Assembly (NCBI GenBank): GCA_963575745.1
Contig: CAUYUJ010012681.1
Span: 208,501-272,500 of the forward strand
Source of the DNA: Prorocentrum cordatum
Lineage: Eukaryota; Sar; Dinophyceae; Prorocentrales; Prorocentraceae
DNA length: 64,000 bases
Direction of reading: 5' to 3'
Shown here: positions 174-64,000 of the stretch, piece after piece
How the letters are laid out: every line of letters begins with the position of its first letter
How positions within the stretch are numbered: the stretch's first letter is position 1
Program-made: the position numbers and the translations under genes
Notes under the pieces: generated by a model
What the model was told of the DNA's origin: nothing
What the model saw: only the letters and a program-made list of their open reading frames with translations
Databases searched by the model: none

Positions 174-1289
174 AATCCCACCAGCCCTTTGGGCGTGAGT
201 GGTTTGGGGGGCTCTCTCTGTTCTCAACCCCCCTTCTTCCCCCTCGGGGAGGGGTTTCCCCTACCCCCTCCCCTGGACCTGGAGAGGGCGGGCCGAGCGT
301 TCTCAGGGGGGTCCATTTCGGCCCCTGGGAGGGCCAAAAAAACGACTACCCTCATGAGGATTCTGGCCCCGACGGGGGGGGGGGGAGTTTGGCCCCTCTG
401 CTCGTCTTTGAAGCAGAAATCATTGATTTTACGATGGTTGTGGCCACATTTTGGCCTTCTGAGGGGACCGAGCTCATCTCCCCTCGCCTCTCGCGCGTCG
501 CTGCCCGCAGGGCGGTCCGAGGGCGTCGCCGCGGGCTGGCGCGTGGAGGCCGTCGGTGGCACGCAGGCGCCGCCCGCCTGTCGCGGGGGGCAGGGCGAGG
601 ATGATTCTGGATGCAACGGCGGCGACAGCGGCGCGGCTGCCTTCCTGTTCCGAAGAGGAGGACAGGACGAGGGGGGAACTGGTAATTTCCCTCTCCCCCT
701 CCCTCGCCCTCCTCCTCTCCGCCCGCCTTTCTTTTTCCCCTGGCCAACTTCCCCCATCGCCATGTCCATCTCCAACCGCCCGTCGCGCGCGAGGCGGGAT
801 CGGCGGCCTCGAGCTCGTCGGCTGCCGCCAACGGCATCGCGGGCGCCACAGGCAGCACGCGCCTCCGCGCCCGCGGCAGGGAGGGGGGAGTGAGAGCATG
901 GCAGGAACAGGGCAGGATGGGGAGGAGGAGGAGGAGGACCAGGGCAGGAGGATAAGTAGGAACAGAGCAGGAGCAGGGCGGGAGGGGGAGGAGGAGGAGG
1001 GCAATCTATTTTGGATTGAGGGGAGAGGGGAGAGAGGGGAAAGGGCTTCCCCCCCAGTAGGTTTCTTTACAGCTTTCGCTTTCTAGGGTCTCCCACTGGG
1101 AAGGAGACGCAGGATTATTCACTGCGTGGGGCTCCACATATGTGCAGCTACTCGCATGGACCTGTCTGCCGTGAATGTCTAGGCGCAAGAGCTTTCGAAT
1201 ATTAACGGGCTGCAGTTGTAACGGTCTGGACATCAATCTAATTGCGAAAGAATGGGAGTGTGCATGAGCCTCAGTAGTACGAGCGCGTC

Positions 1290-1930
1290 TCTGTGCATGA
1301 GCCTGGCGCCTCCTGGGGCATCCTGAAACCTACTGGGGTTTCCTGGGGTCTCCAGGGGCCTCTTGGGGCCTCCTGGGACCTCGGAGGAAGGTTTCGTGTC
1401 CCAGGGGAGGCGCAATCTATAGCAACAGACGTGCATAAAACATTGCGGATTAGAGCCACAGGAGAAGGGCAATATATAGGAACTCGCGTAAAACACAAAA
1501 GGACTCGTGCCCCCAGGAGAGGCCCAATACATAGGAACATGAGTAAACCATTTAGGATTGTGCACACAGGAGAAGGACCATCTATAGAAACATACGTAGA
1601 ACATAAAAGAATTGTGCTCCAGGTGAGGCCCAATCGATAGGAGCATGCGTAAAACACATGGGATTGGAGCCACTCCTGTTGCCTTCTGAGGCCTCCTGCT
1701 CCTGGGGCCTCTCGGGGCCTCCTGTTGCCTTCCGAGGCCTCCTGGCGCTTCCTGTTGCCTCCTGGGGCCTCCTGTGGTTTCCTGAGGCCTTCTGGAGCTT
1801 CCTGGGGCCTCCTGGAGCCTCTTGGGACATCCTGTGGCCTATTGAGTCTTTCTGTGGCCTCCTGATGCCTCCTGGGACCTCATGTGGTCTCCTGGGGCCT
1901 CCTGGAGCCTGTTGGAGCCTCCTGTGGCAT
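1290..1930 (+). repeat. GGGGCCTCCTG minisatellite stretches
   Basis: Two blocks (about 1290-1390 and 1675-1930) of an irregular 11- to 15-bp unit built on CCTGGGGCCTCCTG flank a unique piece. The same words occur inverted at 10590-10830 and 11140-11240 in the other arm. Confidence 0.7.
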
Positions 1931-2023
1931 CCTGAGAAAAATCTGCGCCCACGAGCCTGGCCACCAAAACAAGCAAACCGATCGAGACATCCTCAAAATC
2001 TGGCCCACCTGGGGGGTGACAAT

Positions 2024-2777
2024 GAGCGCCTCGCTCGAGACATCCTCCAAATCTGCTCCGAAAGCGAAGGATGGTGGGCACAGAAACAGGCAAACCGCCT
2101 GAGACATCCCCACAAAATGGCCGCGAACGAGCCCGTGCAACCACCCCTGGCGGCTCCCCTTAGGGGTGCTGAAATGAGCGCCTCGCTCGAGACATCCTCC
2201 AAATCTGCTCAGAAAGCGAAGGATGTTGGGCACAGAAACAGGCAAACCGCCTGAGACATCCCCACAAAATGGCCGCGAACGAGCCCGTGCAACCACCCCT
2301 GGCGGCTCCCCTTAGGGGTGCTGAAATGAGCGCCTCGCTCGAGACATCCTCCAAATCTGCTCCGAAAGCGAAGGATGTTGGGCACAGAAAAGGCAAACCG
2401 CCTGAGACATCCCCACAAAATGGCCGCGAACGAGCCCGTGCAACCACCCCTGGCGGCTCCCCTTAGGGGTGATGAAATGAGCGCCTCGCTCGAGACATCC
2501 TCCAAATCTGCTCCGAAAGCGAAGGATGTTGGGCACAGAAACAGGCAAACCGCCTGAGACATCCCCACAAAATGGCCGCGAACGAGCCAGTGCAACCACC
2601 CCTGGCGGCTCCCCTTAGGGGTGCTGAAATGAGCGCCTCGCTCGAGACATCCTCCAAATCTGATCCGAAATCGAAGGATGTTGGGCACAGAAACAGGCAA
2701 ACCGCCTGAGACATCCCCACAAAATGGCCGCGAACGAGCCCGTGCAACCACCCCTGGCGGCTTCCCTTAGGGGTGCT
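2024..2777 (+). repeat. 152-bp tandem repeat, left array (5 units)
   Basis: The word GAGCGCCTCGCTCGAGACAT starts at 2024, 2176, 2328, 2479 and 2631, a period of 152 (once 151). Units are nearly identical. Because 152 is not a multiple of three, open frames on the minus strand rotate through all three frames. This explains the long overlapping open frames here; I do not call them genes. Confidence 0.9.
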
Positions 2778-2985
2778 GAGTATGAGTAAGTCTGTGTATG
2801 AGTAAGTCTGTGTATGTGTACGTCTGGGTATGACTAATACTGTGTATGAGTAAGTCTGTGTATGAGTAAGTCTGTATATGAGTATGTCTGAGTGTGCGTA
2901 AGTCTGAGTATGAGTAGGTCTGAGTATGAGTAAGTCTGAGTATGAGTAAGTCTGTGTATGAGCAAGTCTGAGTATGTCCGACAGG
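2778..2985 (+). repeat. Short tandem repeat TGAGTAAGTCTG
   Basis: Roughly 14- to 15-bp units built on TATGAGTAAGTCTG, immediately next to the 152-bp array. The complementary array is at 9555-9755 in the right arm, so this block belongs to the inverted repeat. Confidence 0.8.
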
Positions 2986-3347
2986 AGGGGAGGAGAAAAG
3001 AGGAGGAGGAAGAAGGAGGAGGAGTAGGAGGCGCCCAAGTAATAACAAGAACCCCATATTAGGATATGGGGAAAAACCATTGAATCATATGCTTTTCGCT
3101 GAGATTTACATTTTTTTGGAGCCTCATGGGCCCCTCGTGGGGCCCCTCACGAGGCGGCGCCGTCGTCGCCGTCGTCTAGCCGTGTCCTGGCAACGTCCAA
3201 ATATCCAGGGCCTCCTGGGCCCTCCATTTCCACACCCTACTGGGCCCCCCTGGAACCCCTTGGAACTGGGCCCCCCTTTGGGCCCCTGGGCCAAAGTCCG
3301 GAACGCGCTTTTCAAGACTTCGGCGCGAAGTCGTGCTTGCTTGTCGC

Positions 3348-3368
3348 CCGCCGCTGTTTCGGCTCGAA
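3348..3368 (+). other. Candidate degenerate spliced-leader relic
   Basis: About 14 of 21 positions agree with the dinoflagellate spliced leader, including GGCTC near the 3' end, and most differences are transitions. It lies 80 bases upstream of the ATG at 3448, a sensible 5' UTR length. The agreement is weak by itself. It is worth noting only because the other family gene (12769) has the same kind of sequence at the same distance. Confidence 0.3.
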
Positions 3369-3447
3369 TTCATTGCGGAGGTTGCGCCAGGTCCGAGCGC
3401 CAGAACCGATTATCAGCAGGTCTCCCTCGGCGTTCGCGGCCAGCGAT

Positions 3448-5142
3448 ATGAGCGAGGAGGCAGCGCTTGCAGCGATGTCGAGCGAGGGAGTCGCTCTCGT
3501 GGAGCCTGAAGAGGCGCCTGCCATTGACATGATCACGTGCAGTCTCTGCGATGAAGATGTCCCGAAGGGCAATGCCACCAACGTAGCTGGCACTGACCGC
3601 CAGCCGAGGTATGAGTGCCTCCCGTGTCACAGGCTCCACGGCCGCGTGAAGCGCCTCAAGGCTGGCGGCGATGCGCAGTTCGAGGGCTGGGGCAGCCTCC
3701 CCAGGGAGGAGCGCGTCCAGTTCATGAGGGACAACGCCGACGCCTACGGCATCCAGCTGCACGGGTCGATGACCGCGTTGATCAAGAGGACGGTCACTCG
3801 TTCCATGGACGCGAACTTCCACGAGAATGGGCGCTTCATGTTAGTGTCCGATGCAGCTGAGCTTCCAGAGTACAAGAACGATCCAGAAGCGTTCCAGAGG
3901 CTGTGTCAGAATACCCAAGAGCATACATGCCCCCTTTCAGGTATTAAGAGGATCTACGTCCCAGAGTACACGTTCCAGAGGACCCAGGGCCTGCGAGCGA
4001 CCCATACCGCCGAGAGCGCCATGCGCGGCGAGGGGAACATCAGGTCCTCGAAGCCCAAGGCCAAGGCGAAGGCGCCTTCGAGGCGCCCCGCCACCCCGCC
4101 GCCTGCGGATGGCGCGCCGCAGATGCTCCCCCTGAGCGCGGCGCTGAAGAAGAACACAGAGAAAACGATTACTACCCTGCGTGAGCGCGCCCATGACTTC
4201 AGCACGCTGGTGATCACGGCCTCAGCCGAGCAGGCGAAGTTCTACGTCCCCGAGGTCGTGCTGTCGAAGTCGATCCGCGTGCAGCAGGAGTTGCAGACGT
4301 GCCTGGCCGCGCTGCAGCTCATCCAGCAAGACGGCGGCGAGCGGACGAAGGGCGCCACGGCGGAGATCATCAAGGAGTCGAAGGGGGCGCTGAAGGAGGA
4401 GAGCAGCCTCTATGACAAAATCGAGAGTCCACGGGAGAAGAAATACATGGGAATAGGAAGGATAGGGGGGATGAAGGAGGGCGAATCTTTCAGGCGTCTG
4501 GGGACCTTATTGGGGCCCTCTTGGAGGGGCCCTTTGGACAAAACCAAAAACAACACAACACAAAAAAACGTACTTGCTGGGGCATTTTGCATAGGTCGCA
4601 GGGCTATCGCCCGAAAGCTCGGTTTGAATCTGCCTTGGGCCCATCCAGTTTTCGGGGGGTATCTCGGGGCTCTCGTGGAGTCTTCTTGGACCCTCTTGGG
4701 GCCCTCTCAAAGCCTTGGGGCCCTCTTGGGGCCGTCTTGGGGCCCTTTGGGGGAAAAAAAAAAAAAAAACGAATCGTGTTTTGAAAACTGATTGTTTCAA
4801 AGACCTCTTGGCCCCTTCCAAGGGCCATCAGAGGATCCCGAAACGGCCCCAAGACGGCCCCAAGAGAGCCCCAAGATGGCAAGTTTTCGGGTGCATTCTT
4901 GGCGGGCCCTTCCCCGAGGTCTGCTGGACGACATGCCCAGCGCAGAGCGTGAGGCACTCGCCGCGGCGACCGCGTCCCAGGTTCGCGAGCAGCTGGGCGG
5001 CGGTCGCAGCCCCGCGGAGGAGGATGCTGGTGCTGAGGCTGAAGCGGCGGCGTCTCCTGCGGCCACCAGTGCTGATTCTGCCCAGAAGCCTGGCCGCCGC
5101 GCCAGGATGAAGCGCCCCTCGGCGGTGCAGAATATCGACTGA
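3448..5142 (+). CDS. Zinc-ribbon dinoflagellate family protein, probably with one intron
   Basis: The frame from ATG 3448 runs cleanly to about 4400 (some 315 codons). Near the N terminus it has CSLC (residues about 32-35) and CLPC (about 57-60), a CxxC-x21-CxxC pattern that could bind zinc. A basic stretch follows, then a Lys/Ala/Pro-rich linker (KPKAKAKAPSRR) and a helical C-terminal part. I recall multicopy Symbiodinium proteins with this layout; their function is unknown. After about 4400 the frame enters GGGGCC-type repeat that does not look like protein. A second coding-like piece in another frame (about 4890-5142) reads HSWRALPRGLLDDMPSAERE and ends basic at TGA 5140. I infer an intron of about 0.5 kb between the two, but the splice sites are not certain. 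The gene sits between the arms of the large inverted repeat. It could be a processed copy, given the spliced-leader-like sequence upstream. Confidence 0.55.
4660..4885. repeat. GGGGCCCTCTT foldback around an A-run
   Basis: About 4660-4750 repeats CTTGGGGCCCTCTTGGGGCC. About 4835-4885 holds the reverse complement (GGCCCCAAGACGGCCCCAAG). A run of 16 A lies between them (about 4755-4770). The two sides can pair. It lies inside the presumed intron of the zinc-ribbon gene. Confidence 0.6.
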
Positions 5143-9445: not shown

Positions 9446-9554
9446 TGTGGTTTTTTCCCCATATCCTGAGATGGGGTTCTTGTTATTACTTGGACGCTTC
9501 CTACTCCTCCTCCTTCTTCCTCCTCCTCTTTTCTCGTCCCCTCCTGTCGGACAT

Positions 9555-9755
9555 ACTCAGATTTGCTCATGCACAGACTTACTCATACTCAGACTTACTC
9601 ATACCCAGACCTACTCATACTCAGACTTACTCACACTCAGACATACTCATATACAGACTTACTCATACACAGACTTACTCATACACAGTATTAGTCATAC
9701 CCAGACGTACACATACACAGACTTACTCATACACAGACTTACTCATACTCAGCAC
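9555..9755 (-). repeat. Short tandem repeat CAGACTTACTCA
   Basis: 14- to 15-bp units reading CAGACTTACTCATAC, complementary to the array at 2778-2985. Adjoins the 152-bp array in the same relative order. Confidence 0.8.
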
Positions 9756-10516
9756 CCCTAAGGGGAGCCGCCAGGGGTGGTTGCACGGGCTCGTTCGCGG
9801 CCATTTTGTGGGGATGTCTCAGGCGGTTTGCCTGTTTCTGTGCCCAACATCCTTCGCTTTCGGAGCAGATTTGGAGGATGTCTCGAGCGAGGCGCTCATT
9901 TCAGCACCCCTAAGGGGAGCCGCCAGGGGTGGTTGCACGGGCTCGTTCGCGGCCATTTTGTGGGGATGTCTCAGGCGGTTTGCCTGTTTCTGTGCCCAAC
10001 ATCCTTCGCTTTCGGAGCAGATTTGGAGGATGTCTCGAGCGAGGCGCTCATTTCAGCACCCCTAAGGGGAGCCGCCAGGGGTGGTTGCACGGGCTCGTTC
10101 GCGGCCATTTTGTGGGGATGTCTCAGGCGATTTGCTTGTTTCTGTGCCCAACATCCTTCGCTTTCGGAGCAGATATGGAGGATGTCTCGAGCGAGGCGCT
10201 CATTTCAGCACCCCTAAGGGGAGCCGCCAGGGGTGGTTGCACGGGCTCGTTCGCGGCCATTTTGTGGGGATGTATCAGGCGGTTTGCCTGTTTCTGTGCC
10301 CATCATCCTTCGCTTTCGGAGCAGATTTGGAGGATGTCTCGAGCGAGGCGCTCATTTCAGCACCCCTAAGGGGAGCCGCCAGGGGTGGTTGCACGGGCTC
10401 GTTCGCGGCCATTTTGTGGGGATGTCTCAGGCGGTTTGCCTGTTTCTGTGCCCAACATCCTTCGCTTTCGGAGCAGATTTGGAGGATGTCTCGAGCGAGG
10501 CGCTCATTTTCACCCC
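9756..10516 (-). repeat. 152-bp tandem repeat, right array (5 units)
   Basis: Equivalent points recur at 9777, 9929, 10081, 10233 and 10385, exactly 152 apart. Sequence is the complement of the left array. Open frames again rotate between the three frames and are not called genes. Confidence 0.9.
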
Positions 10517-11519
10517 CCAGGTGGGCCAGATTTTGAGGATGTCTCGATCGGTTTGCTAGTTTTGGTGGCCAGGCTCGTGGGCGCAGATTCTTCTCAGGAT
10601 GCCACAGGAGGCTCCAACAGGCTCCAGGAGGCCCAGGAGACCACATGAGGTCCCAGGAGGCATCAGGAGGCCACAGAACGACTCAAGAGGCCACAGGATG
10701 TCCCAAGAGGCGCCAGGAGGCCCCATGAAGCTCCAGAAGGCTTCAGGAAACCACAGGAGACCCCAGGAGACAACAGGAAGCGCCAGGAGGCCTCGGAAGG
10801 CAACAGGAGGCCCCGAGAGGCCCCAGAAGCAGGAGGCCTCAGAAGGCAACAGGAGTGGCTCCAATCCCATGTGTTTTACGTATGCCCCTACCGATTGGGC
10901 CTTACCTGGAGCACGATTCTTTGATGTTCTACGCATGTTCCTATAGATGGTCCTTCTCCTGTGTACACAATCCTAAATGTTTTATTCATGTTCCTATGTA
11001 TTGGGCCTCTCCTGGGGCGCGAGTCCTTTGTGTGTTTACGCGTGTTCCTATAGATTGCCCTTCTCCTGTGGCTCTAATCCGTAATGTTTTATGTACGTCT
11101 GTTGCTATAGATTGCGCCTCCCCTGGGGCACGAAACCTTCCTAGGAGGTCCCAGGAGGTCCCAGGAGGTCCCAAGAGACTCCTGGAGACCCCAGGAAGCC
11201 CCAGTAGGTTTCAGGAGGCCCCAGGAGGCCCCAGGCCTCCAATTCATTCGCAGTTAGATTGATGTCCAGACCGTCACATCTGAAGCCCGTTAATATTCGA
11301 AAGCTCCTGCGCCTAGACATTCACGGCGGACAGGTCCATGCGAGTAGATGCACATATGGGGAGCTCCACGCAGTGAATATTTTTTCTTCAGGCGTGTGTC
11401 CGCTTGGGCCCGCATATCTCCCCTGTTCCTCCTTCGTCCCGCCTGCTTGCACATCCTCCTTGTGGAGGGGGGGGGGGGGGAAGGACGAGGCGGAGGAGGA
11501 GGGAGAGAAAGCGCTCCTC

Positions 11520-16885: not shown

Positions 16886-17864
16886 CAGACATACAGAACG
16901 TTGTGTTTAGTATTCGAGTCCCAGCTCGGTAAAACTAGACTCGGTAAAAATAGATCTCGGCTAAACTAGGTCGCAATCTGATATCTAATTTAAACGAGTG
17001 GAGAGTATAGTAGGGTAGCGTAAAGTAGGGCAGACGGTATTCGACAACGGTAGAAACGAGTCGGGCGGGGCCGAGCTGGGTCGAGTAGAGCAGAGCAGGG
17101 TAGAATACAATGTATTGAAGTGTAGAACGACGTAGAGGGGAATCGGGTGTACTAAAATTGAGGAGCGCAGGGTAAGGTCGACTCGGGCACACTTGGTTAA
17201 GATGCGACGAGCTAGAGCAGAGCGGAGCCGAGCAGGGCCGATCGTCGAGCAGAGCGGGTTAGAACCGAGTAGAATAGAACTACGCGTAGGGCACCGACAA
17301 TCAAAATAGAACAAATGGAAACAAATCAAACCCGAATCGGATTAAGCAGAGTCGCGTAGGACACATCCGAATGCATTACACCAGAGCATGTTGAAGTTGA
17401 GTATGTTGGCGCTGACATGACTAGAGTTGTGTAAGATAACATAGGCGAGGGTCTACGCGTGTAAAAAGAGTAGGGTTGCGCATACTGGAGTGGAGTAGCG
17501 TAATGTGGACCATAATCGGGTAGCGTAAGACAAAGTATATTAGAGCACGTGTGTGGCAGGGTAGAGAGGCGAAGACTAGAATATACGATAATGAAGCAGA
17601 GAAAAACCGAGTTGCGCAGGGTTGAGGTCTAGACGTGGAGGCGCAAGGTGCAACGCATGTCGCGTGTGTCCCTGACGCTCGCCATGGCAGGTCACATGGC
17701 GCTAGGAACGGCCACTGCCCGCGTCGCTGCGGGCGGGCGTAAATGAAGGCATGCGCCCGAACATGCGGGGGGGGGGGGGGGGTGCACCAGAATAATAGAA
17801 CACGCACATTTACCCGACTAACGTAACGCATGACATACTCTTGGGACCCAACGGAGCACCTGAA
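16886..17864. other. Unassigned sequence upstream of the LINE insertion
   Basis: GTAGAGCAGAGC-like words with weak internal repetition, then a G-run at 17767-17781. Open frames on the minus strand are short and lack known motifs. It ends at the left target-site copy. Confidence 0.4.
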
Positions 17865-17875
17865 CCTCCCAAGTG
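17865..17875. repeat. Target-site duplication, left copy
   Basis: CCTCCCAAGTG, exactly repeated at 24808-24818 on the other side of the LINE. Confidence 0.85.
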
Positions 17876-17889
17876 ATTTTTTGATTTGC
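17876..17889 (-). other. A-rich 3' terminus of LINE
   Basis: On the element strand the last bases read GCAAATCAAAAAAT, directly abutting the target duplication. This is a short impure poly(A)-like tail. Confidence 0.7.
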
Positions 17890-18195
17890 GCGCGGGTGAT
17901 CGTCTGCCGAACACTCCTGCCCGTGGCGCCGAAACGACGAGCGAGGGGCCCGAAGAAGGGCCGAAAGAAACGAGGGACGGACCAGGACCCGACAGAGCCG
18001 AGCGAGGGACCGACCCGAGCAAACAGGGACAACGAGAAAAATCGAGGGCCCGAACAGACAAGCGATGCTGGCAAGACTGGTGAGACAATTTGAAGCCCGC
18101 GTCCTGGCTCCTGGGCTTCCAGCCTCAACCTCTGGCCAGCAGCAGAATTATACAACAAGACAGAGTCAGCACGGCGGCGGAGAGCCCTTCCTCTC
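17890..18195 (-). other. LINE 3' UTR, distal part
   Basis: GC-rich sequence between the structured repeats and the A-rich end. Open frames are low complexity. No known motif. Confidence 0.5.
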
Positions 18196-18775
18196 TTCGC
18201 GAGCCTGGGCTGGGGGGGGACAAAAGGAGCACATAAAGGATGAGTGGGCGCAGGCGGTGCGGGTGCCTGCTTCTCAGCGCCTCTGTACCCACTCATCCTT
18301 AGCCTAGCCTAGAACCCTGACGAATCGGCACAGGACACTACAGAGAGCAAGGCTAGAGAGGCAGAAAGCATGCCGCCCCCCGCAGCAGGAAGCGAAGATA
18401 ATTTTCTTTGCTTCTCTTTGCGAGCCTGGGCGGGGGGAAGGACAAAAGCAGCGCAGAAGGAGGATGAGTGGGCGCAGGCGGAACGGGTGCCTGCTTCTCA
18501 GCGCCTCTGTACCCACTCATCCTCAGCCTACTAGTCCCTGGCGCGTAGCCATAAGACATTTCGACTGTCCGACTGTCCGACTGTCAGAGAGAAAGCGCAG
18601 ACAGAGAGGCGTGCACAGATATCCCCGCGCGGCGGGCGGGCAAGAGTCTTCTCTCTTTGCGAGCCTGGCCAGGGGAGGAATGACAAAAGCACAGACGGGA
18701 TATGTGGGCGCAGGCGGAACGGGTGCCTGCTTCTCAGCGCCTCTGTACCCACTTATCCCAAGCCTACCCTACTTC
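18196..18775 (-). repeat. Three 3' UTR repeats, each with a conserved hairpin
   Basis: A block of about 115 bp recurs with starts near 18199, 18420 and 18659. Each holds a stem GGATGAGTGGG/CCCACTCATCC (third copy GGATATGTGGG/CCCACTTATCC) enclosing an inner stem GCAGGC/GCCTGC. In the third copy one G-C pair is replaced by A-T on both arms, while another position is mismatched. The repeats lie within the LINE 3' UTR and could serve in recognition by the element's own RT. Confidence 0.75.
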
Positions 18776-18784
18776 CTGGAAGCT

Positions 18785-18925
18785 GTCCTCTGTAGCGGCC
18801 AGGAAATGGAGTACTGCAGAACAACACTTCTGGCGGCTGGTGTCGGGGATCCGAGTAGTCCTGCCAGCATCAGACAGACGAGACAGACCAGATATCCCAG
18901 GTACATCCACCCCACCTCCGAAGTA
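18785..18925 (-). repeat. Partial duplicate of the ORF1 zinc-finger sequence in the 3' UTR
   Basis: Closely resembles 24555-24690, the start of ORF1. It still encodes GYLVCLVC before losing frame. It lies directly after the ORF2 stop, inside the same element. Confidence 0.75.
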
Positions 18926-18938
18926 TACCCCGAGAAAT

Positions 18939-21900
18939 CTACGGGGCCTCTAAAAGCCATGCAGGATCAAACAATGCCTGAACATTAAAGACATCGTGAG
19001 GGGCAGGAAAAGCATATATAACGTTGACATTGTCAACCGCAGTGACCTCACCGACTGGTTGATCAGTGCGGGGGTCACGACCATCACACATGCGTCGAAG
19101 CCGTGAGATGGTGCCAGAGGCCCGAGGAGGCCCAGTGCATGATTTAGTTAAATCAACTGCTTTCTTACACGAGTAGCGGCCACATCGTCGACAAAATATG
19201 ATATTATTTAGCCGCCTGAGCACGTGCCCACCGCCAGTGGGAGAAGAGCACTGCGAACGCAATAAATAGCTCTTGGAGACTGAACTAGCCCAACAATTCA
19301 CGCATCGAAAACGACCCGCTGAGGGGTCCCAGAAATGCTCATGCAAGGCCCCAGAGGAGGCACCAGAGAGGACTAGGGATGGGGCCGTGGGGGCAGGGGA
19401 CTCGTCAGAATCCGCCGCCCAAACCTTTTTGGGCACATTCTTGAAAATCCATGCTATACAATGACCGATATACACACCAAGATTGCGCACCAGCAAACCA
19501 GAGCGCTTGATACGGTCGTGCAGGACCGTGTCCAGAGTGTGTAGGTCAGCACCTAGGTTAGCAAGTCTGTCAGCTTGCTTATTACCCGCAGAGGTAGAGT
19601 GGCCACGAACCTTGGTGACCTTAATTAGGTGATACCCGATATCTGAAGCCGCACGGTGGACACGGACCCACAAGGATGCGTGAGTGGCCCATCCGTGCGT
19701 GGTAGCTTCATACCCCAATGCCCAACCGTCCACGACGCACTGGGCATCAGTGACAAACTCATAGCAGTCGGAGGGGGCAGCATGGGTTAGATAAAATAAA
19801 AACGCATAAAGCTCAGCCCCTGAAACATCCTGGGTGAGAAAGGGATATACGCCATATGCACCAGCATTAAGCCGAAGCCGATCATTGGCGATGGGCTCAC
19901 CAAAAACATTGCGACTACGCGGGGCAAATGAGCAGACACCCCATCCACAACGGAGAGTGAGCGGCGAGGGACCATGCTTTCCCGAGCCGTCTCCATACGC
20001 AGGCGACGAGAAGAAGGGGCCGTCTGTGGCTCCTTCCCAGACAGGGTCTGGGAAAGGTGGTGCAAGCAGGGAGCAATAGCGCGGGTCGGGAACCATGGCA
20101 GTGGTCCAGACAGGGTTCTCGCGGTACTGCTCTATGCAGCGGGTGAGGGCTGGAGTCGGGCCGAACCAACGACGAAACTAAACAAGCCCATCACGCTCAT
20201 ACAGGGTGCGAAACACGGGGTCAGAGGGGACGACCTGGCAAATGGGGCACATAGGTTTAAAGTATATGCCCCCAGATATAAAAGTCCTCAAAGAACGCTG
20301 CTGGAGGACACCCCATCCTTCAGTCTTCTTAGACAAAAGGGAAAGAAGAGGGGGGAGGAAAGGGGGTCCAGACAGGTGACTGAAGGATGGGTGACGCTCA
20401 GGGGCCTGTTTCCAGGCCCAAACAAACGCGTCGCGAATCACTAGTGCCACCACCTCACGAGGGGAAGTAGACGAAATATCAACATCGGTTCCAAGAGAAG
20501 TTCGCCATATTGTGGGCGACGCCGCAGACCACCCAATTCTACGCATAGTGGCAACCAAAATCTGTCCTGGGCCCTGCAATTCAGTCCACGGGGTATCTGG
20601 CGTCACCTTGGCGTAGGCAAACTGGAAAACTTGGTCTATCATTCCGACAGGAAGAAGAGAGTCCCATCTAGAGACAGTCCAGAGACGAATAACCTCAGCA
20701 TGTGCATCGATAGCAGGGTCGGTAACACCATGCAAGGCCAAATCCATCGTGACAGACCTACGCTTACCTGTGCTGAGACCAGCGTGGTATATAGCACGGA
20801 CCTGACGAATCTGGTGAGTAGATAGACCCACGACGTCAATGCCGTACATGACAGTGGGCCGCAAGTTAGTGCTTACAATACCTGCAACCTTTGCACCAGC
20901 CTTCTTTATCTTCAATAGGCGTCGGGCCTTAAACCTGGCCTTTTTCAATCGACCAGTGAGAACAGTACGAGAACGACGCCCCTGACGTAACTGATAGTCA
21001 ATCCCGGGGTTTCGACACGAGAACTTGACAGCACCAGCGAGACGTGGAGTTTCAGCTGCAATGCTCTGAGCCAACTGGGGGCCAGTAGCCAAGAGCACGA
21101 TTTTCTTCTCGGAGAGCGGTAAACATGCCGAGAAAGTAAGCTTGCTCATCAAAAGGTGCGACGCATCGGGACCGATTTTGAGCAACTCCCTCTCCGAGCC
21201 TATCCCCAGGACCTGGACGTCGTCGGCGACGAGGCCAAGGTGCATATTTGGATACGACTGACGAAACGAATCCAGCTCGGGCATCAATAAAATACGCATA
21301 AACAGATCGGCAAACTAGCAACCTGCTACAATAGTCTTGCTAGCTCTGACCCACTCCCCAACAATGCGCCGCAACGTGACAACACGCGGGGAACGATACA
21401 GAGACAGGACAACCCTCAAGAGTGTTGGATGAAACCCAAACTCACTAGCACGTCTTATGAGAAGTTTATGACGAACCTGTTCAAAAGCCTTCTGGATGTC
21501 GAGCAAGAGTGCAAACACAGACAGACCTTTGGCAGATGCTAACTCCGTGAGGACGCCCATGCGCCACACACATGCTTGGCAGGAATGACCGCGCACACCA
21601 TGCACGTACGGACGAGGATGCAATCGTGCCCACATAGCACCATACGCGTGCCTGAAGAACCGAGAGAACGTGCGCACACAAGTCGTGAACAGGGCAACCG
21701 TACGCTCGCCACCATCAGCCTTCGGGATCAAATGCGTGATGAACACAGCGAGAATGGGAGGAACTCTACCAAATCGCAGGACAGCGCGCCAAATACCAAA
21801 CAGGGCAAGAAGAGACGAGTCGGAAAGCAGCGCATGGTGACGTGGATGCATAGAGTCCAATCCCACCGACGTACGAGCTTTGCACCTGCGACACATATGC

Positions 21901-22763
21901 CTGTACTTGTCCAAGGACGGGCGAGGCAAGGATGCAAGGCAGTCGGGCGGAAACGGCGGGAAATCCAGGGCCAGGCAAGGATCGTCAGGGTGCTCCTGCA
22001 TGGGCTCCCAGATAGCATGCCAAACTCCTTCTCGCGCCTCAAGATGATGCTGCGGCGTACCGACTGGGGCATCTGGGTTCGGGGTGGTCTTGTCAAAGGA
22101 AGCCCAATCCATAGATCCCTTGACGAATCGGTGCGCAGCAGAACCCCCTTCCTGGACAGATCGGATGGCCCATGATGTCCAGGATTGGTATCTCTGTGCC
22201 GATGCTGCACGTTCCAGAGCAGATGCGGACTCGGCCAAGACGCCCCGCAGCCAATCTATGGAACCAAGATCTAGGGTACCAAGCCTGTTGGCAGAATACC
22301 TCCACCACGACCAATCGGGGGGAGGACCACCATCACGCTGCGAAGGGCGATATCGGCGCAGGGCTTGACCGGCTCTCCGATACGCGGGCCACAACTGCTT
22401 GTCAGCAAGGTATAGAAGAGTGCCAAGACGGTTAGAGAGATACCTCCAGAGCCTTCCTTCATATGACGAAAGCACACCTCCAGGACACAGTCTGGAAACC
22501 GAAATCTGGATAGTCGAGGGGGGCTCACCCCACTTGGTGTAATCCTGCGGATCTGGCAACTGGAAAAGGGCAAGCAACTCCTGGGCAGACGTCTTCAGCC
22601 AAGAAGAGGTAAGACGCTCCAAATCTTCCACAGAGTTGACTGCGTCAGGATCAGGAAAGGCATCCCAGGAAGGCGGGCAATTTGAACACCCCACTGGCCG
22701 AACAACAGGGATGTGCGGCGGGCGCCGAAAAAAACGATACCAAATCAGAGTGAAGATTTCCAC
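18939..22763 (-). CDS. LINE ORF2: reverse transcriptase, RNase H and Cys-rich tail
   Basis: One reading frame runs from at least 22763 to TAG 18939, interrupted only by TAG at 21315-21317 and 20178-20180. RT motifs seen are IPKADGGERTVALF (about 21720-21680), catalytic LLLDIQKAFEQV (about 21510-21475) and LVADDVQV (about 21240-21215), the FADD/YADD-type box. The first TAG falls between the last two, after IVAGC, so it would remove the second catalytic box. RNase H follows the second TAG. It shows AYGDGSGK, ELYAF, VTDAQCV and NKQADRLAN, which supply the expected acidic residues. The C-terminal Cys/His cluster is RCVNCW, GGHVLRR, FCRRCGRYSC. The product would make and integrate new element copies at nicked DNA. 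Codon 22763 is GTG, so the true start is upstream in another frame. Confidence 0.85.
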
Positions 22764-23490
22764 GAAGGGTGAGAGCGACAGACTGATGCTTGGGGATCAG
22801 GGGGGTCTCCCAGACCTCACACTTAACTGCTGCCGAGAGCAAGGGGTGAACCACAAAGTAGTCAATCAACGACTGGGCACCCGCGGACTCATAGGCATGG
22901 CGATCTGGCGCGACAATGACCCCACCTATGAGCGTTAAGAAGTCCATATTCTGCAAGTCCTTGGGGGACATGTTCCAGTCCCCTGATATAACAAAGGGGG
23001 TGGATATAGTCTTCATGACTGCTGCCACCTGCATCAGTAGCTGGGCATTGCGATCCTCGGCGCCTCCCCCCGTATGCAAATAGACATTGGCCCAAGGGGT
23101 ACCTGAATCCACGACCCCATGCCATAGCTTCAGGATAAATCTCTCTGGAGGGGGCATGACAACAATCGGATCCAATACAACTTCAGAGAAAGACCTGGCA
23201 TACTGCGAGACAAGGCCCACTCCTGAACTCAAGCCGCCTTTCTGAGTACTAACTGAGGGGTGGAGGTGCGCATGGAACCCATGCTTGTGAGCACGGTTGA
23301 CTGCAAACTCGATAGCCTGTTCAGTACGACGGAGTTCTTGAAAGCCAACAGCATCAAACCGATCAGAATAAGCCTCCAGGAAAATATCGGCATTGGACCA
23401 GGAGGCAACACTCACAGTAACGATGACCCAGTCCCGATGCGGCTTCTGTCCGAAGGCTGACTTGTCGCGCGGGGTCTCCGATGTGCTAAA
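22651..23490 (-). CDS. LINE ORF2 N-terminal endonuclease domain
   Basis: About 279 codons in a frame different from both ORF1 and the RT. Endonuclease/exonuclease/phosphatase motifs visible: VGFQELRRTEQ (metal-binding Glu), ISGDWNMSP (Asp/Asn), SLIDYFVVHP (Asp) and KHQSVALTL (catalytic His). This is the nicking enzyme of APE-type LINEs. It overlaps the RT frame by at least 113 bases, so the join needs a frameshift between 22763 and 22651. It also overlaps the end of ORF1 by a few bases. Confidence 0.8.
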   Translation of the reverse strand, partial: FSTSETPRDKSAFGQKPHRDWVIVTVSVASWSNADIFLEAYSDRFDAVGFQELRRTEQAIEFAVNRAHKHGFHAHLHPSVSTQKGGLSSGVGLVSQYARSFSEVVLDPIVVMPPPERFILKLWHGVVDSGTPWANVYLHTGGGAEDRNAQLLMQVAAVMKTISTPFVISGDWNMSPKDLQNMDFLTLIGGVIVAPDRHAYESAGAQSLIDYFVVHPLLSAAVKCEVWETPLIPKHQSVALTLRGNLHSDLVSFFSAPAAHPCCSASGVFKLPAFLGCLS

Positions 23491-24685
23491 GGTCAGACGG
23501 GCCCTTGGGATTGGAGCCCCCCACCACTGCCGGGGTGTCGGCGGGGCCAGAGGTGGCGGCAGCCGACGGCGAAAACCTTCCTGACTGTCCCGACTGATCA
23601 ACTGCAGCATCAAGGGCATGAGCAGGACGTTTCGGCGCAGGCGGCAGTGAGGAAGAGGAACGGGGAGGAGCCCTGGCAACACGTGTTGGGGAACCTTGCT
23701 GGTCGACAGACATCCTGGGCTCCTCAGACTGGGACCGAGGTTCACTGGCAACACCAACAGGAGCATAGCCAGACATAACGATACCCTGGAGGTCCCGCAA
23801 CGCCTGAGCAAGCTTCTTGTCTCTCTGCGCTGCCTGGGAAGCTGCGAAGACGTCCGCCACGGCTGATAGATCTGGGGGCGTGAAGCCCTCAGGGACTGGC
23901 TCGCTCGACGGGAGATCCTGCAACTTAGACTGCCACATAGCCATATCCTGGGCGACCCGCTCCTGACGAGAGCAGAGGGCGTCCCTTTCGCTCTGAAGGT
24001 CCAGGATCTTACGATCGAACTCACGGATCTGGCTAGAGATCTTGTCAAACTTCTTACTGGCCCAGTGATGGCGCTGCTTGTAGAACGCACGCTTCTGGGG
24101 AACGGTAAGCAAGTCGGACTTTTGTGCACGGAAATGCTGCACCTCATCCTGGAGACCCGAGACCTGATCACGAACATACCTGGTCGGCGGAAGCAGGCGA
24201 AGGGAATCCAGCTGGCCCAAAAGGGCCTTGATAATCTGATCAATCTGCGTAACCGAGAGCTCATTGCCATTGGTGTCGACACAGCCGCCATCAACGTCGT
24301 CGTCGACGTAGTCAGCCCAAAAACCACGATCGCTGCCAAGACCGTCGTCGCCAGAGCCATACCCGAATCTATCCTGCACTTCCTCATCCAATGGAGCCTG
24401 AAGACGTTCATCCAAAGACCGAACTGGGGGAGTGGCAGCACCGTCAACATCATGACGATCATGGAAACGAGCACGGGGAGGAGACAAGACACGCTCACTG
24501 CCACTGCCTTTGCTCCTGCCTTTGCCGTCTTTGTCGCCTTTGCGACCGTGCTTTCCTGGGACCTGTCCTTTGGAGCGGCCAGGAAAAGGGGCACTGCAGA
24601 ACTTACACTTCCGGCGGGGATTGGTGTCGGGGATCCACGAAGTCTTGCCAGCATCGCGACAGACGAGACAGACGAGATATCCCAT
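23486..24685 (-). CDS. LINE ORF1: CxxC zinc-finger, coiled-coil RNA-binding candidate
   Basis: 399 codons from ATG 24685 (context CGCCATGG) to TAG 23486. It opens with MGYLVCLVCRDAGKT and then KCKFCSAPFPG, a C2C2 finger at residues 5 to about 30. A Lys/Gly-rich basic patch follows, then an acidic middle (about 24370-24290). A long charged helix, about 24080-23920 (SQIREFDRKILDLQSERDAL), is likely coiled coil. The last 100 residues are Pro/Ser-rich. This start is preferred because it is the first ATG after the spliced leader, 100 bases downstream. The frame stays open further upstream, but that lies outside the element. ORF1 proteins of LINEs usually package the RNA; that role is inferred. Confidence 0.75.
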   Translation of the reverse strand: MGYLVCLVCRDAGKTSWIPDTNPRRKCKFCSAPFPGRSKGQVPGKHGRKGDKDGKGRSKGSGSERVLSPPRARFHDRHDVDGAATPPVRSLDERLQAPLDEEVQDRFGYGSGDDGLGSDRGFWADYVDDDVDGGCVDTNGNELSVTQIDQIIKALLGQLDSLRLLPPTRYVRDQVSGLQDEVQHFRAQKSDLLTVPQKRAFYKQRHHWASKKFDKISSQIREFDRKILDLQSERDALCSRQERVAQDMAMWQSKLQDLPSSEPVPEGFTPPDLSAVADVFAASQAAQRDKKLAQALRDLQGIVMSGYAPVGVASEPRSQSEEPRMSVDQQGSPTRVARAPPRSSSSLPPAPKRPAHALDAAVDQSGQSGRFSPSAAATSGPADTPAVVGGSNPKGPSDL

Positions 24686-24785
24686 GGCGCGCCCGTGCGG
24701 CTCGGTGGGCGGCACGCGCGCCAGAACCGTCCGAGCCTGCCGCACGGCTGCGGACAAGCTCGAAGCCTCGCGGCAAGGTTTCGAA

Positions 24786-24807
24786 CTTGAGCCAAAATGG
24801 CTACGGA
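24786..24807 (-). other. Exact dinoflagellate spliced-leader sequence at LINE 5' end
   Basis: All 22 bases match the DinoSL consensus (TCCGTAGCC...GGCTCAAG). It sits precisely between the 11-bp target duplication and the LINE 5' UTR. It shows that the RNA which was reverse transcribed had been trans-spliced. Confidence 0.95.
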
Positions 24808-24818
24808 CCTCCCAAGTG
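24808..24818. repeat. Target-site duplication, right copy
   Basis: CCTCCCAAGTG, identical to 17865-17875. Confidence 0.85.
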
Positions 24819-25081
24819 GCCAGCAGACACCTATGGGGCACCAGCAACACGGGTCGGCAGGTCCGGAACCGCGGCCGCGCCCATTGCGGGCACCGTTCTG
24901 AGAAGTGGAGAGGGGCAAACATAAAGAGGCGCCGTCCAGCACGGCGGCGCGGCCGCGGGGGAGCTGCAAGGGAGTGCCCCCGCGCCGAACCTGATCGCTG
25001 CATCCTGAGCCCCGCCCTGCAGCGCTGGACGAGGGCGTGGTGCGCGTCCTCTGGGCGCACGCCCCAATCCTTGAGCTTCGA

Positions 25082-25921
25082 CTAGATCGCCGGCATCTCG
25101 TTGCGGAACGGCACCTTCTCCCTCGAGACGGACCGGTCGCTGCAGTGCCCGAGGATCCCGTGGCTGATGCTTAAGAACCGCGCCATGTCGACGAGCGGTT
25201 TGACCGCTGCCTGGGCCCCGTCGTCCAACGCCGAGCTGAAATCGGCAGCCTTCTGAGTCAGGCAGGCGAGGGCCTCGCGCAGGCGGTCGCACTTCGGGGG
25301 CCAGCCCGGCGCCAGCGAGGCGACGCGCAGAAGGGGGGCGATCCCCATCGGCTCAGCGATGGAGTCGGCAGACGACCCCTTATCCAGCCACGCCTTGGCC
25401 TACTCGTCGGCCTCGGGCTCCGCCCTCAGCGCGGCCGCAGCAGTAGCGAACTCGGCAATGAAGTGAGCTGTCGCGGCGTTGCCCAGCTTCTCTGCCATGC
25501 CCTGCGCCTTCTCGGTGATCTCGTTCGCTCTCGCGGAGAAACCCTCGCCGAGCGCGTCGATGACATTGGCGTTGACTGTCGTCTGCTGGGCGCGCTGGGG
25601 CGCCTGGATGACCTCGCGGGCGCGCTTGTCGAGCTCGACGTGGCCCATCGCTGGCTTCTCTCTACTTCCGTTCGCCTCGGACGCCTTCGCCTCAACTGTT
25701 CGCGTCGCGCAGCAAAGCCTCCACGCAGACTTCAGCCAGGTAAAGAGTTGCCCGGCACCAGGGCGATAGTCGACTGGGGCATGGTTCGCCGCGATGTCGA
25801 GCGCCTCGTAGTGGGTCAAGGTGCTGCTCTGGCCAAACTCCCCGTCACTCATGATTTCCTTCGCGAACCGCAATGGGGGCCCCAAGAGGAGCCCACCGCG
25901 CACGGCCCATGACATTGTCAT
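25082..25921 (-). pseudogene. Unrecognised helical reading frame broken by UAG codons
   Basis: A single minus-strand frame covers 25921-25082 with one TAG at 25400-25402 and another at 25082-25084; it stays open beyond the second. Residue composition looks like protein: TVNANVIDALGEGFSAR, AEKLGNAATAHFIAEFATAA and REALACLTQKAADFSSALDD suggest amphipathic helices. No family recognised. It lies just upstream of the LINE insertion, so it may be part of the locus that the LINE entered. It could be a decayed gene, or an exon set with misjudged boundaries. Confidence 0.35.
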
Positions 25922-27180
25922 CGCCGTTGGGGGCGACCGCGCCAGCTATCGAACGCCCGCGCCAAAGTGGCCCCAAGCGGGCCCAAAGAACACCTCGCGG
26001 CGCCTCGAGAGGCCCCATGCGGGCCACAATGGGGAGATCCAGACGGCACCGCGGCAGCCCCGAAAGGCCACGCGTGGCGCCACTGCAGGGCCCAACACGC
26101 GCGAATGAAGGCTGGCCCCCACGGTTGGGGGGCAGCGGCCAGCTCTTAAACCCAGCCCCCAAGATGAAACCAAGCGGGTCCACAGAAAACTAGAGGGGGG
26201 TGCGAGAAGGCCCAGCCGCGCCCCGACGAGCGGCTCAAGGCGGCACCGCGACGGGCCCGAAAGGCCACGGAGGGAGGCAGCAGGAGGGCACAGCGCGCAG
26301 AGCGTAACACGTGGTTTTCAAATCGGAAGCCCAGAACACATGCGCCCATGCCGCGCGAGACAAAATACGAGAACATCAGGCATTCCGTGCTCTTCGTCGT
26401 TGGGGCTTGTGTTGTCTTGTCTGGCTGGGGCCATTGCGGCCCCGCTGCGGCCCGGAGCGCAGCCGCCATCGCAGCAACCGCACTCGCCACGACAATAACC
26501 GTCATAACCATCGCCGCAACCATGATAGCCGCCAGGGCACGCGGCCACCACGCCACGACATTGATACATACGCATGCACATACACACGAGAACATGACAT
26601 GATGAAGTCTCTGGTGGAAAGCTTGGCTCACGCCAGCGCGACGCAAGACTGCGCGTGCTTCGGGCCCCCCACTCATTGCGCTGATTGCGGGCCACCTAGG
26701 AGACGCCCACATTGATGCGCGGCCCAATAGCGGCGTGGGACATCTGATGGAAGGTGCTTCGGGCGACGGCGCATTCGCTTGGGGCACGATGGAATCCTGG
26801 GGCAGCAGGGTACCCCACCAGCACCCTGGGCGCAGGTGGTCTGAGAGGCGTCACCTCCCACCTTGCCTGCCCCTGCCCCCTTCACCTGGATATGGGCGGG
26901 GCGCCCCGCGAGGTGTTAGAGGGTGCTCGTTCGCCCATGATGGCCCCGATGGGGGCCTTAGAATGCCCGAGATGACCTCCAACATGGCTCAGCGCAGCCC
27001 AAGATGCCCCAAGTCGGCCCGCAAGATATCCCAAGAGGCCCCAAGAACGCTCCAAGACGTCTCCAAGACACCTCCGAGACCTCCAACGGGGCCACCAAGA
27101 AGCAAACGCCACTCAAACAATTATCCCAGTGCGACCCTACCTAGGAGTTGGAACCCCTAGGAAAGCAGCATTAGTAGTAA
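25922..27180. other. Unassigned sequence with GGCCCCAAG words
   Basis: Blocks near 25960-26090 and 26990-27090 carry GGCCCCAAG-type units in the GGGGCC family. Open frames on both strands are short and overlapping. No gene supported. Confidence 0.4.
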
Positions 27181-53586: not shown

Positions 53587-53693
53587 TGTGGCAGACGGAG
53601 ACAGACTAGGTGTTTTACCCTTGAGCCACAATTGGTCACGGACAGAAACTCCTGACGCTGAACCTATCAGTGAAAATCTGCCTCACTGCAACA
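53587..53693 (-). repeat. 3' LTR of copia element
   Basis: 107 bp, TG...CA ended, identical base for base to 63521-63627. Contains a spliced-leader-like sequence at 53620-53642. Very short for a copia LTR. Confidence 0.9.
53620..53642 (-). other. Spliced-leader-like sequence in 3' LTR
   Basis: About 19 of 23 aligned positions match the DinoSL, including TCCGT at the start and GGCTCAAG at the end, in the sense of the element. The same sequence is at 63554-63576 in the 5' LTR. Confidence 0.5.
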
Positions 53694-53859
53694 CTGGTCA
53701 AACTTTCTTCTAGGTTCAGCTCTCCCCATGTCAGGAGAACTGTGACCACCCATTCGCGGAAAAGCACAGTACACGGTGGCGGCTCCCCACGGAAGCCTCC
53801 GTCCCCCAGGACGGCCGTATTCACGAAAACAAGGTGAGAATCAGAGCAACAACGGAGGA

Positions 53860-58260: not shown

Positions 58261-58790
58261 TCAGTCCTCGACTGTCCACCTGCATCCCAAAACTGCACAT
58301 ATCGACACGGATCCGCTTAACCCCCGGGAGCGATGAGACACAGCGAACAACGAACGAACCCCACGACGAGGCGTAGAGGGGATGCTCGAACGCGAAGTAT
58401 CTGCCTTGGTTGACTTGGTACTCCGCGATCTCCATACAGAGCACCAGATCCCGAACGCCGTCTGACACGATCCTCTGCCACTCCACGGGGTCCATCCTAT
58501 CCCGATTGATACGATTGATCGCAGAGAACGCCCTACATTCAGGACACAGCCAGACGGTCTCTGGCTTGTCTTCCTTGAGGTGCCTCCAGAGCTCTCTGAC
58601 GTCAGTCCTTCGAGACGAATCCCATCCCTGGCGAAGGTCCCAGCTAGCCTGAGCTCCGAGGGGGGCCCCAGCCCTGGCCACCTCAGGAGCGATCCTAGGA
58701 GGGGAAAACACTTCGGAGAAGGAGACCTTGGCTCTCTGGCGGGTGGGGTAGCTTTCAGAGCCCCAGCTGCGGACTCGCCCCCGCTCCCCC
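58203..58790 (-). CDS. copia methyltransferase-like accessory domain
   Basis: About 195 codons in a frame between those of Gag and integrase. Seen in order: SFSEVFSPPRIAPEVARAG, DLRQGWDSS, VWLCPECRAFSAINR, GRYFAFEHPLYASSW and RVDMCSFGMQV. I recall the same block, with SPPC and HEHP motifs, from other dinoflagellate copia elements. The layout resembles a C5-cytosine methyltransferase core: motif I (FSG-like), Asp after the second strand, PPC-like motif IV with FS, ENV-like motif VI (here EHP). The expected PPC is PEC here, and the Gly-rich loop reads SPPR, so activity is doubtful. Assignment is inference from spacing of motifs. The frame must shift to the integrase frame near the G run at 58203-58208. 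Confidence 0.5.
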
Positions 58791-59116
58791 GAACCCAAAC
58801 ATAGCCGCGCACTCGCCGAGAGCTTTCCGGATCGAGGCCCCGCAAGCCACCTCGTGATCGTCATTGGTGGCGTCCCCGTCCAGCCACTCGGGCCCCAGAT
58901 CGTCCCAGGCCTGCCTCGATCGTTTCCGTCCTTGGGATGAGTTGAGGGGAGAGGAGGTAGGAGGAGGGGCTCCTCGTGTCTGAGATGCCCCTCGAGGGCC
59001 AGAAGTGCTGTGAGGATCGTGCGTCTCGCAGTTGCACTGAGCAAAACAGGCAGAGATGCTAAAACTCGGGCACTTCTCGCGAGAGGCCTGACACCTCCCA
59101 CTGGCCTCTGGGCGCT
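58755..59116 (-). CDS. copia linker segment with Cys cluster
   Basis: About 120 codons in the Gag frame: KCPSFSISACFAQCNCET and a basic/acidic tail (RKRSRQAWDDLGPEWLDGD). It ends at TGA 58755. It lies between the 541-codon frame and the methyltransferase-like domain and probably belongs to the same polyprotein. Function unknown. Confidence 0.4.
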
Positions 59117-60742: not shown

Positions 60743-60764
60743 TTGAGCCCAAACTGGCTACGGA
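60743..60764 (-). other. Spliced-leader relic inside copia element
   Basis: TCCGTAGCCAGTTTGGGCTC... matches the DinoSL at 20 of 22 aligned positions, with one inserted G and one T to G change. It is in the sense of the element, at the junction of the Gag-protease part and the 541-codon frame. Confidence 0.8.
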
Positions 60765-63377: not shown

Positions 63378-63500
63378 GATCACCTTGGCCGTGGATCCCA
63401 CGCTGCTTCGTCAGTGCGAGCGCGGCCGCGGACGAGGGCGCGCGAGCGGGTGGCCGCCTACCTCGTGGCAGGGTCGCCTCCGCCCATGGCACCTCGCCCA

Positions 63501-63518
63501 GGCCACGCTCCGCTACCA
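63501..63518 (-). other. Primer-binding site candidate
   Basis: Two bases inside the 5' LTR the element strand reads TGGTAGCGGAGCGTGG. It starts with the TGG that pairs to a tRNA CCA end. It resembles the TGGTATCAGAGC site used by many copia elements for initiator methionine tRNA. Confidence 0.65.
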
Positions 63519-63520
63519 AC

Positions 63521-63627
63521 TGTGGCAGACGGAGACAGACTAGGTGTTTTACCCTTGAGCCACAATTGGTCACGGACAGAAACTCCTGACGCTGAACCTA
63601 TCAGTGAAAATCTGCCTCACTGCAACA
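63521..63627 (-). repeat. 5' LTR of copia element
   Basis: Identical to 53587-53693. Carries the spliced-leader-like sequence at 63554-63576. Confidence 0.9.
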
Positions 63628-64000
63628 CCTATGCGGTCCCCACCTCCATGCTGGGACCCGAGCGGGGTTACCCAGATCCTTTAACTGTCGTCACGTTTGG
63701 GCTCCCCAGGCTCGACTCTGGAGAATGTCTCGAGCGGGAGCCTCGTTAGCGAGTGAACCGCGACGAAGTCTCAAGCGGGAGCCCCTCCCCCCCCTGTGGG
63801 GTCATCACCTCCATGTTGGAATCCGAGCGGGATCATCAAAATCCTGTAGCTGTCGCCACTTCTGGACTCCCCAGATTTTGAATCTGGAGGAAGTCTCGAG
63901 CGGGGGCCTCGTCTGTGAGTGAATCGCGACGAAGTCTCGAGCGGGAGCCCCCCACAATGGGGTCCCCCTTTCCATGTGGAATCCGAGTGTGGCCATCCAA
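63628..64000 (+). repeat. About 160-bp tandem repeat right of the copia insertion
   Basis: CACCTCCATG or close variants occur at 63641, 63806 and about 63966. GCGACGAAGTCTC(A/G)AGCGGG occurs near 63760 and 63926. The array continues past the window edge and is the same repeat as 53420-53586. Confidence 0.8.

Follow-up and report, generated by a model that had tools for sequence, protein, structure and literature searches.

Spliced leader and target-site duplication

A retrotransposon that begins with the spliced leader of its host raises two questions: how the leader came to lie in DNA, and whether a copy formed in this way could replicate again. A long interspersed nuclear element (LINE) of this kind lies in a stretch of 64,000 nucleotides (nt) of the dinoflagellate Prorocentrum cordatum (GenBank assembly GCA_963575745.1, contig CAUYUJ010012681.1, positions 208,501 to 272,500 of the forward strand). 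We refer to the whole stretch as the window and use its coordinates throughout. The insertion spans 6,932 bp on the minus strand (17876..24807), with its 5' end at position 24807. A preliminary description, made from the sequence alone, had reported that an exact 22-base dinoflagellate spliced leader (DinoSL) abuts one copy of an 11-bp target-site duplication and that an A-rich 3' end abuts the other. We confirmed both junctions. The DinoSL, TCCGTAGCCATTTTGGCTCAAG (24786..24807, minus strand), directly adjoins the copy of the duplication on the element's 5' side, CCTCCCAAGTG (24808..24818), and the A-rich 3' end, CGCAAATCAAAAAAT (17876..17890, minus strand), directly adjoins the copy at the 3' end, again CCTCCCAAGTG (17865..17875). 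Read along the minus strand, the order is CACTTGGGAGG, the DinoSL (24807 to 24786), the LINE, the A-rich end CGCAAATCAAAAAAT, and CACTTGGGAGG again.

The 21-nt core of the DinoSL was found at a single site in the 64 kb when up to three mismatches were allowed, and there the match is exact (24786-24806, minus strand); each of 100 shuffles contained 0 sites. Base 24807 reads T on the minus strand, which fits the D of the published DinoSL and brings the match to 22 of 22. Once this first T of the leader is included, the string common to both ends is 12 bp long, and the T may equally well be part of a 12-bp duplication that takes in position 24807. CCTCCCAAGTG occurs at two exact places in the window, with no third place even when one mismatch is allowed. 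The duplication, the A-rich 3' tail, and the lack of long terminal repeats (LTRs) are features of LINEs, and an mRNA-derived insertion that starts precisely with the leader is the mark of a DinoSL-tagged retrocopy.

Coding regions of the LINE

Downstream of the leader, a 5' untranslated region (UTR) of 100 nt (24686..24785, minus strand) reaches to the ATG of open reading frame 1 (ORF1; 23486..24685, minus strand). ORF1 is open from this ATG (24685-24683) to a TAG (23486-23488) and has an N-terminal CxxC...CxxC arrangement (GYLVCLVC...CKFC); it matched no Pfam family above the cut-off. An endonuclease (EN) domain follows in a partial open frame (22651..23550, minus strand; Exo_endo_phos, PF03372, E = 4.8e-06, above the cut-off), with the motifs QE, GDWN, LIDYFVV, and KHQSV. 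The first part of the reverse transcriptase (RT; 21315..22796, minus strand) contains the motif LLLDIQKAF and matched RVT_1 (PF00078, E = 2.1e-06) at 28.1 bits, just below the cut-off of 29.6. A second part in the same frame (20178..21314, minus strand), which had no Pfam match, contains VADD where the catalytic box is expected. The RNase H domain (18939..20177, minus strand; PF00075, E = 6.4e-06, above the cut-off) is again in the RT frame, and this part has D-E-D-D-like residues at four acidic positions and a C-terminal CxxC...CxxC arrangement. We take the QE, GDWN, and KHQSV motifs of the EN, LLLDIQKAF and VADD of the RT, and the acidic residues of the RNase H to be catalytic. The order of the domains is EN, RT, RNase H, all in sense with the leader. 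An EN resembling apurinic/apyrimidinic endonuclease (APE) and an RT, the latter with a Pfam score just under the cut-off, place the element among the APE-type LINEs.

The LINE had been described as complete. This holds for its length, the full 6,932 bp, but not for its coding capacity, which is broken by one frameshift and two in-frame TAGs. The frameshift lies near a seven-base homopolymer (A7/T7; 22728..22734, minus strand) in the overlap of the EN and RT frames, and it may be a mutation, a read error, or a site of slippage. The TAGs, at 21315-21317 and 20178-20180, end the first and second RT parts, respectively, and thereby break the frame that runs from RT to RNase H.

No further copy of the LINE was found elsewhere in the window, its internal repeats aside; two weak tblastn matches there (E = 0.40 and 0.69) were at chance level and were discarded. 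In viral contigs, the pattern of the first RT part matched 19 stretches, none of them a relative, and that of the RNase H part matched none. No relatives were found among plasmids for the second RT part or among PDB sequences for the first RT part and the EN part, and tblastn of five pieces of the LINE against 14 retrieved loci gave no match at E values of up to 1.

Probable reverse transcription of a trans-spliced mRNA

From the leader, duplication, and tail, the preliminary description had concluded that reverse transcription of a trans-spliced LINE mRNA had gone all the way to the 5' end. The leader, the duplication, the tail, the domains, and their common orientation, all of which are observed directly in the DNA, support this conclusion. 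The explanation that best unites them, and that we consider probable, is target-primed reverse transcription of a LINE mRNA that had been trans-spliced by the host; the product is probably a dead-end retrocopy, similar to the spliced integrated retrotransposed elements (SpIREs) of humans. Target-primed reverse transcription is established LINE biology. In this case, trans-splicing of the LINE transcript by the host would have made the spliced leader its 5' end. The LINE enzymes would have made the first nick on the plus strand of the window after CCTCCCAAGTG (CCTCCCAAGTG/GCCAG), a site that differs from the T-rich site nicked by mammalian L1. Reverse transcription would have been primed at the A-rich 3' end and would have ended at the leader's first base. 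A second nick 11 to 12 bp from the first would give a duplication of 11 to 12 bp, which would be left behind when the cDNA end at the leader was joined to the DNA. We infer the order of these steps, as well as which copy of the enzymes acted.

Several points weigh against this explanation. By number, the two matches to CCTCCCAAGTG are unsurprising: 1.79 are expected at up to one mismatch, 54 of 100 shuffles had at least two such matches to the 11-mer, and a string of at least 11 nt recurred within 12 kb at 10.1% of 2,990 control positions, the window being rich in repeats. The A-rich tail is 15 nt long and is not a clean poly(A), so that it is a presumed poly(A) remnant. The evidence comes from one copy. 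The frame breaks may be later decay or assembly error and so need not mean that the copy was dead on arrival, and earlier leader-bearing generations are possible because re-splicing at the terminal AAG of the leader leaves no relic. Finally, an internal promoter was probed by a motif scan alone, with one B-box-like match and no A-box as its outcome.

The duplication is convincing because of its position, adjoining both the leader and the tail, and not because of the number of matches. A recurring 11-mer combined with an A-rich stretch (at least 8 A in 12) before its second copy was found at 1 of 3,000 random positions. When low-complexity 11-mers were excluded, it was found at 2 of 55,000 scanned positions, one of which may be the real site. 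With an exact leader at the opposite end of the insertion as well, chance is implausible. The leader could instead have been joined to the LINE by misassembly or in a chimeric read, and repeats are indeed abundant in the window. However, the duplications flank both exact ends of the insertion, and we regard such an artifact as very improbable.

Alternatively, the RT of another element might have copied the leader-bearing LINE mRNA as it would a host mRNA, with the LINE as cargo. Leader-bearing host retrogenes are reported to be common in dinoflagellates (PMC12014239, PMC6050394), and the breaks in the reading frames may be older than the insertion. However, the LINE itself encodes the domains required, and cis-preference has been demonstrated for L1 (PMC5537684). 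On balance, passive mobilization seems rather unlikely to us.

Probable loss of the parental promoter

In target-primed reverse transcription of a trans-spliced mRNA, the parental promoter, outron, branch point, and acceptor would all be lost, because they lie upstream of the junction and trans-splicing removes them. The copy is most likely without its parent's promoter and original splice acceptor, and it is probably promoterless and reliant on transcription by the host. Therefore, a dead-end retrocopy is the probable outcome, unless host transcription were combined with re-splicing at the AGs of the leader. Our confidence in the different accounts overlaps, because the alternatives that concern the fate of the copy share the formation step with the explanation that we favor.

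One such alternative is that an internal promoter in the 5' UTR or ORF1 drives the element, in which case the leader would be incidental and leader-tagged copies would stay active. Internal promoters are known in LINEs, and Pr77 of trypanosomatids is described as yielding abundant unspliced transcripts (PMC8190864, PMC4035085). A B-box-like sequence, GTTCGAAAC, lies across the junction between the leader and the 5' UTR (element positions 22-30), a weak lead toward a putative RNA polymerase III promoter. However, the first 400 nt of the element yielded no A-box in the motif scan, and the window contains 26 B-box-like matches on its two strands. We view an internal promoter as rather doubtful. 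The 5' UTR is also predicted to form a hairpin with the final 4 nt of the leader, equaled in 18 of 1,000 shuffles, and the fold of the 122-nt 5' end is 2.1 standard deviations below that of shuffles, 8 of 200 of which fold as well. None of the three signals, the hairpin, the 5'-end fold, and the B-box-like match, is strong.

Relic leaders and recycling

Repeated passage through mRNA might be recorded in the element itself. In mRNA recycling as described for dinoflagellates, the original leader is cut short when another is spliced on at one of its AGs, and the truncation is placed after nucleotide 7 (PMC3229502). Repeated cycles by that route would therefore leave 15-nt relics. In 99 of the 100 nt of the 5' UTR, the best 22-mer candidate for a relic leader had a score of 7, reached in 182 of 1,000 shuffles, and the best 15-mer a score of 5, reached in 767 of 1,000; both were rejected. 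A gapped scan for scores of at least 12 found the leader itself as the sole site in or near the LINE. Truncated relic leaders, which are frequent in DinoSL retrocopies though not required, are thus not seen here. Relics were reported in 25% of leader-bearing expressed sequence tags of Alexandrium (PMC3229502) and, in two strains of Polarella, in 0.68% and 2.31% of the full-length transcripts (PMC7245778). Given their rarity in Polarella, the missing relics are weak evidence. The copy may be the first of its line to carry a leader, descended from a parent that had an acceptor of its own; otherwise, splicing would have used the terminal AG of the leader, which leaves no trace. The missing relic leader and the broken frames fit a one-off copy.

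A life cycle that depends on the leader would have a promoterless LINE landing in transcribed DNA and being re-spliced at an AG of the leader in each round. This alternative is compatible with the formation step that we propose and differs from our explanation on the fate of the copy. The leader ends in CAAG and has an inner AG, and according to an argument of Slamovits and Keeling, as relayed in PMC3229502, its two AGs favor its presence at the 5' ends of genes. The 5' UTR hairpin, in which the final 4 nt of the leader are paired, would also suit such a cycle, as would the result of an Rfam search, in which neither a ribozyme like that of hepatitis delta virus (HDV) nor any other family was found at the gathering threshold in the window or at E values of up to 2 in 17800-25000. 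With no ribozyme found, one other route to the 5' end of the element falls away. R2 and L1Tc are similar to this LINE in that the 5' end of their RNA is produced by processing, but they use an HDV-like 5' ribozyme (PMC4035085), whereas here the host leader supplies the 5' end. Against a leader-dependent cycle, there is a single copy, its frames are broken, and it bears no relic leader, the mark of recycling reported in PMC3229502. The evidence in this copy is thus neutral or against such a cycle, which we consider unlikely.

Comparison with known systems

The closest functional parallel appears to be the human SpIRE, of which this copy would be the trans-spliced counterpart. SpIREs are copies of spliced L1 mRNA that have lost 5' sequence and are generally dead ends (PMC5860796). 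They arise by cis-splicing, whereas here trans-splicing would have added a foreign exon, and the reduced promoter activity shown for SpIREs in that study is what we infer for this LINE. DinoSL-tagged retrogenes of dinoflagellates (Slamovits and Keeling 2008, as cited in PMC3229502, PMC7245778, and PMC12014239) are likewise insertions derived from mRNA in which the leader has been copied into DNA at the 5' end. In contrast to the retrogenes described there, the mRNA here is that of the retrotransposon itself, the duplication and the tail are both legible, and there are no relic leaders. In Hydra, 30.9% and 29.7% of Iso-Seq reads from transposable elements carry a leader (PMC12220107), and spliced transcripts of such elements are therefore not exotic. 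The Hydra data concern trans-splicing at the RNA level, whereas the LINE described here is a DNA product.

What appears to be new is the combination of a leader-tagged retrocopy with a retrocopy of a spliced LINE, each of which is a known kind. Among the open-access papers listed by our searches, so far as their text was accessible, none described a LINE whose 5' end is a DinoSL flanked by a duplication, which is weak support for the absence of such a report. Related observations exist. Of 26 endogenized ORFs for viral RNA-dependent RNA polymerase, 6 were reported to have leader relics no more than 500 bp away, and LINEs were implicated (PMC10235124). Two Symbiodinium genomes were reported to contain genes with leader relics and also reverse-transcriptase genes, with no link drawn between them in the parts available to us (PMC8045281). 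LTR elements have been favored as the agents of retroposition (PMC6050394).

In organisms that trans-splice, a LINE copied from spliced mRNA loses everything upstream of the junction, and the persistence of such elements comes into question. The legible leader, duplication, and tail indicate that LINE enzymes are able to copy a leader through to its first base. LINEs are therefore a credible engine of mRNA recycling in dinoflagellates, besides the LTR elements favored in PMC6050394. Further, counts of relic leaders on LINE copies could gauge the number of cycles per lineage.

Repeats in the 3' UTR

The 3' UTR of the LINE contains a 127-bp repeat of the start of ORF1 (18773..18899, minus strand; source, 24553-24684), with 84% identity over 132 columns. 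Its left edge falls sharply on the T of the ATG. The repeat does not lie at the terminus of the element, lacks the 5' UTR, and is frameshifted and so is not kept as protein. It is possibly an internally deleted relative that inserted in the 3' UTR, or the product of a template jump. Three repeated modules of 121 nt each (18651-18771, 18415-18535, and 18191-18311; together 18191..18771, minus strand) adjoin this repeat. The modules at 18415-18535 and 18191-18311 are predicted to fold into a long stem, and module stability relative to shuffles was unremarkable (z = -0.44, -1.65, and -1.02, in the order given). The pattern of the modules was not found in viral contigs. In TART, sequence of the 5' region is repeated near the 3' end. 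The repeat in this LINE differs in its divergence, its lack of the 5' UTR, and its frameshift, and the comparison is made without a telomeric link. The repeats of TART, a telomeric LINE, are described as Perfect Non-Terminal Repeats (PMC5537684).

Leader-like sequences in a copia-like element

At the same threshold of 12, the gapped scan for leaders found three places in the window besides the leader of the LINE, all of them in sense inside a Ty1/copia-like element (53587-63628). This element has LTRs identical at 108 of 108 bp, an RVT_2 match (E = 4.6e-14), and a primer-site-like sequence beside the 5' LTR. Two of the places are copies of TCCGTGACCAATTGTGGCTCAAG, one per LTR (53620-53642 and 63554-63576, minus strand), with a score of 14 that was attained in 8 of 400 simulated windows and by 1 of 60 shuffled leaders. 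If real, they may represent a leader in the R region. The third, TCCGTAGCCAGTTTGGGCTCAA (60743-60764, minus strand), has a score of 17, attained in 0 of 400 simulated windows and by 0 of 60 shuffled leaders. An ORF of 520 residues has its ATG 63 nt downstream of this sequence, and the coding frame apparently changes nearby. The change is seen in codon scores for which this element was part of the training set; they are weak at about 2,600 to 3,600 and favor the first frame again at 3,200 to 3,400. If real, TCCGTAGCCAGTTTGGGCTCAA would be the fossil of a leader that a subgenomic RNA had acquired by trans-splicing; a coincidence in coding sequence is possible, because the stretch is also within an open frame.

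Taken jointly with the LINE, these sequences would suggest that retroelements use the host leader as a replaceable 5' end. Promoterless LINEs would be given a new leader at the leader AG in each cycle, and in the copia-like element the LTR leader would serve as the repeat for strand transfer and the inner one would precede a trans-spliced gene. We consider this joint reading quite unlikely. No report of leaders in LTR retroelements was noticed in the open-access literature, as far as the accessible portions of it go.

Surroundings and other leader occurrences

Seven open frames outside the LINE were scanned with Pfam, and the two frames of the copia-like element were alone in having matches. 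Upstream of the LINE, in the same orientation, lies an open frame (25082-25945, minus strand) with one internal stop and no Pfam match; it may be a gene of the host or a mobile gene, with transcription that continues into the LINE. Elsewhere in the window, a large inverted repeat (1116-3076 and 9452-11379), with pieces that are 85 to 99% complementary and that consist partly of 152-bp and 16-bp tandem units, encloses about 6.4 kb with an open frame of 562 amino acids (3103-4791, plus strand; no Pfam match). The structure might be a terminal-inverted-repeat element.

Exact DinoSLs were also seen in sequences from other sources. An IMG/VR contig (L001; 22% GC), giant-virus-like by impression and with glycosyltransferase domains in one long ORF, contains two (2746-2766 and 2893-2913, minus strand). 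One of them begins a stretch of about 0.9 kb with about 45 to 52% GC and an ORF of 254 amino acids, as if a leader-tagged host cDNA lay in viral DNA. A 9- to 10-mer next to this leader is found again about 1.09 kb farther on, beyond the end of the GC-rich stretch, and does not make a convincing target duplication. The exact DinoSL core is also present in two contigs binned as Dehalococcoidia (L013, 32-52, plus strand; L014, 4334-4354, minus strand), where it is perhaps due to dinoflagellate contamination of the bins.

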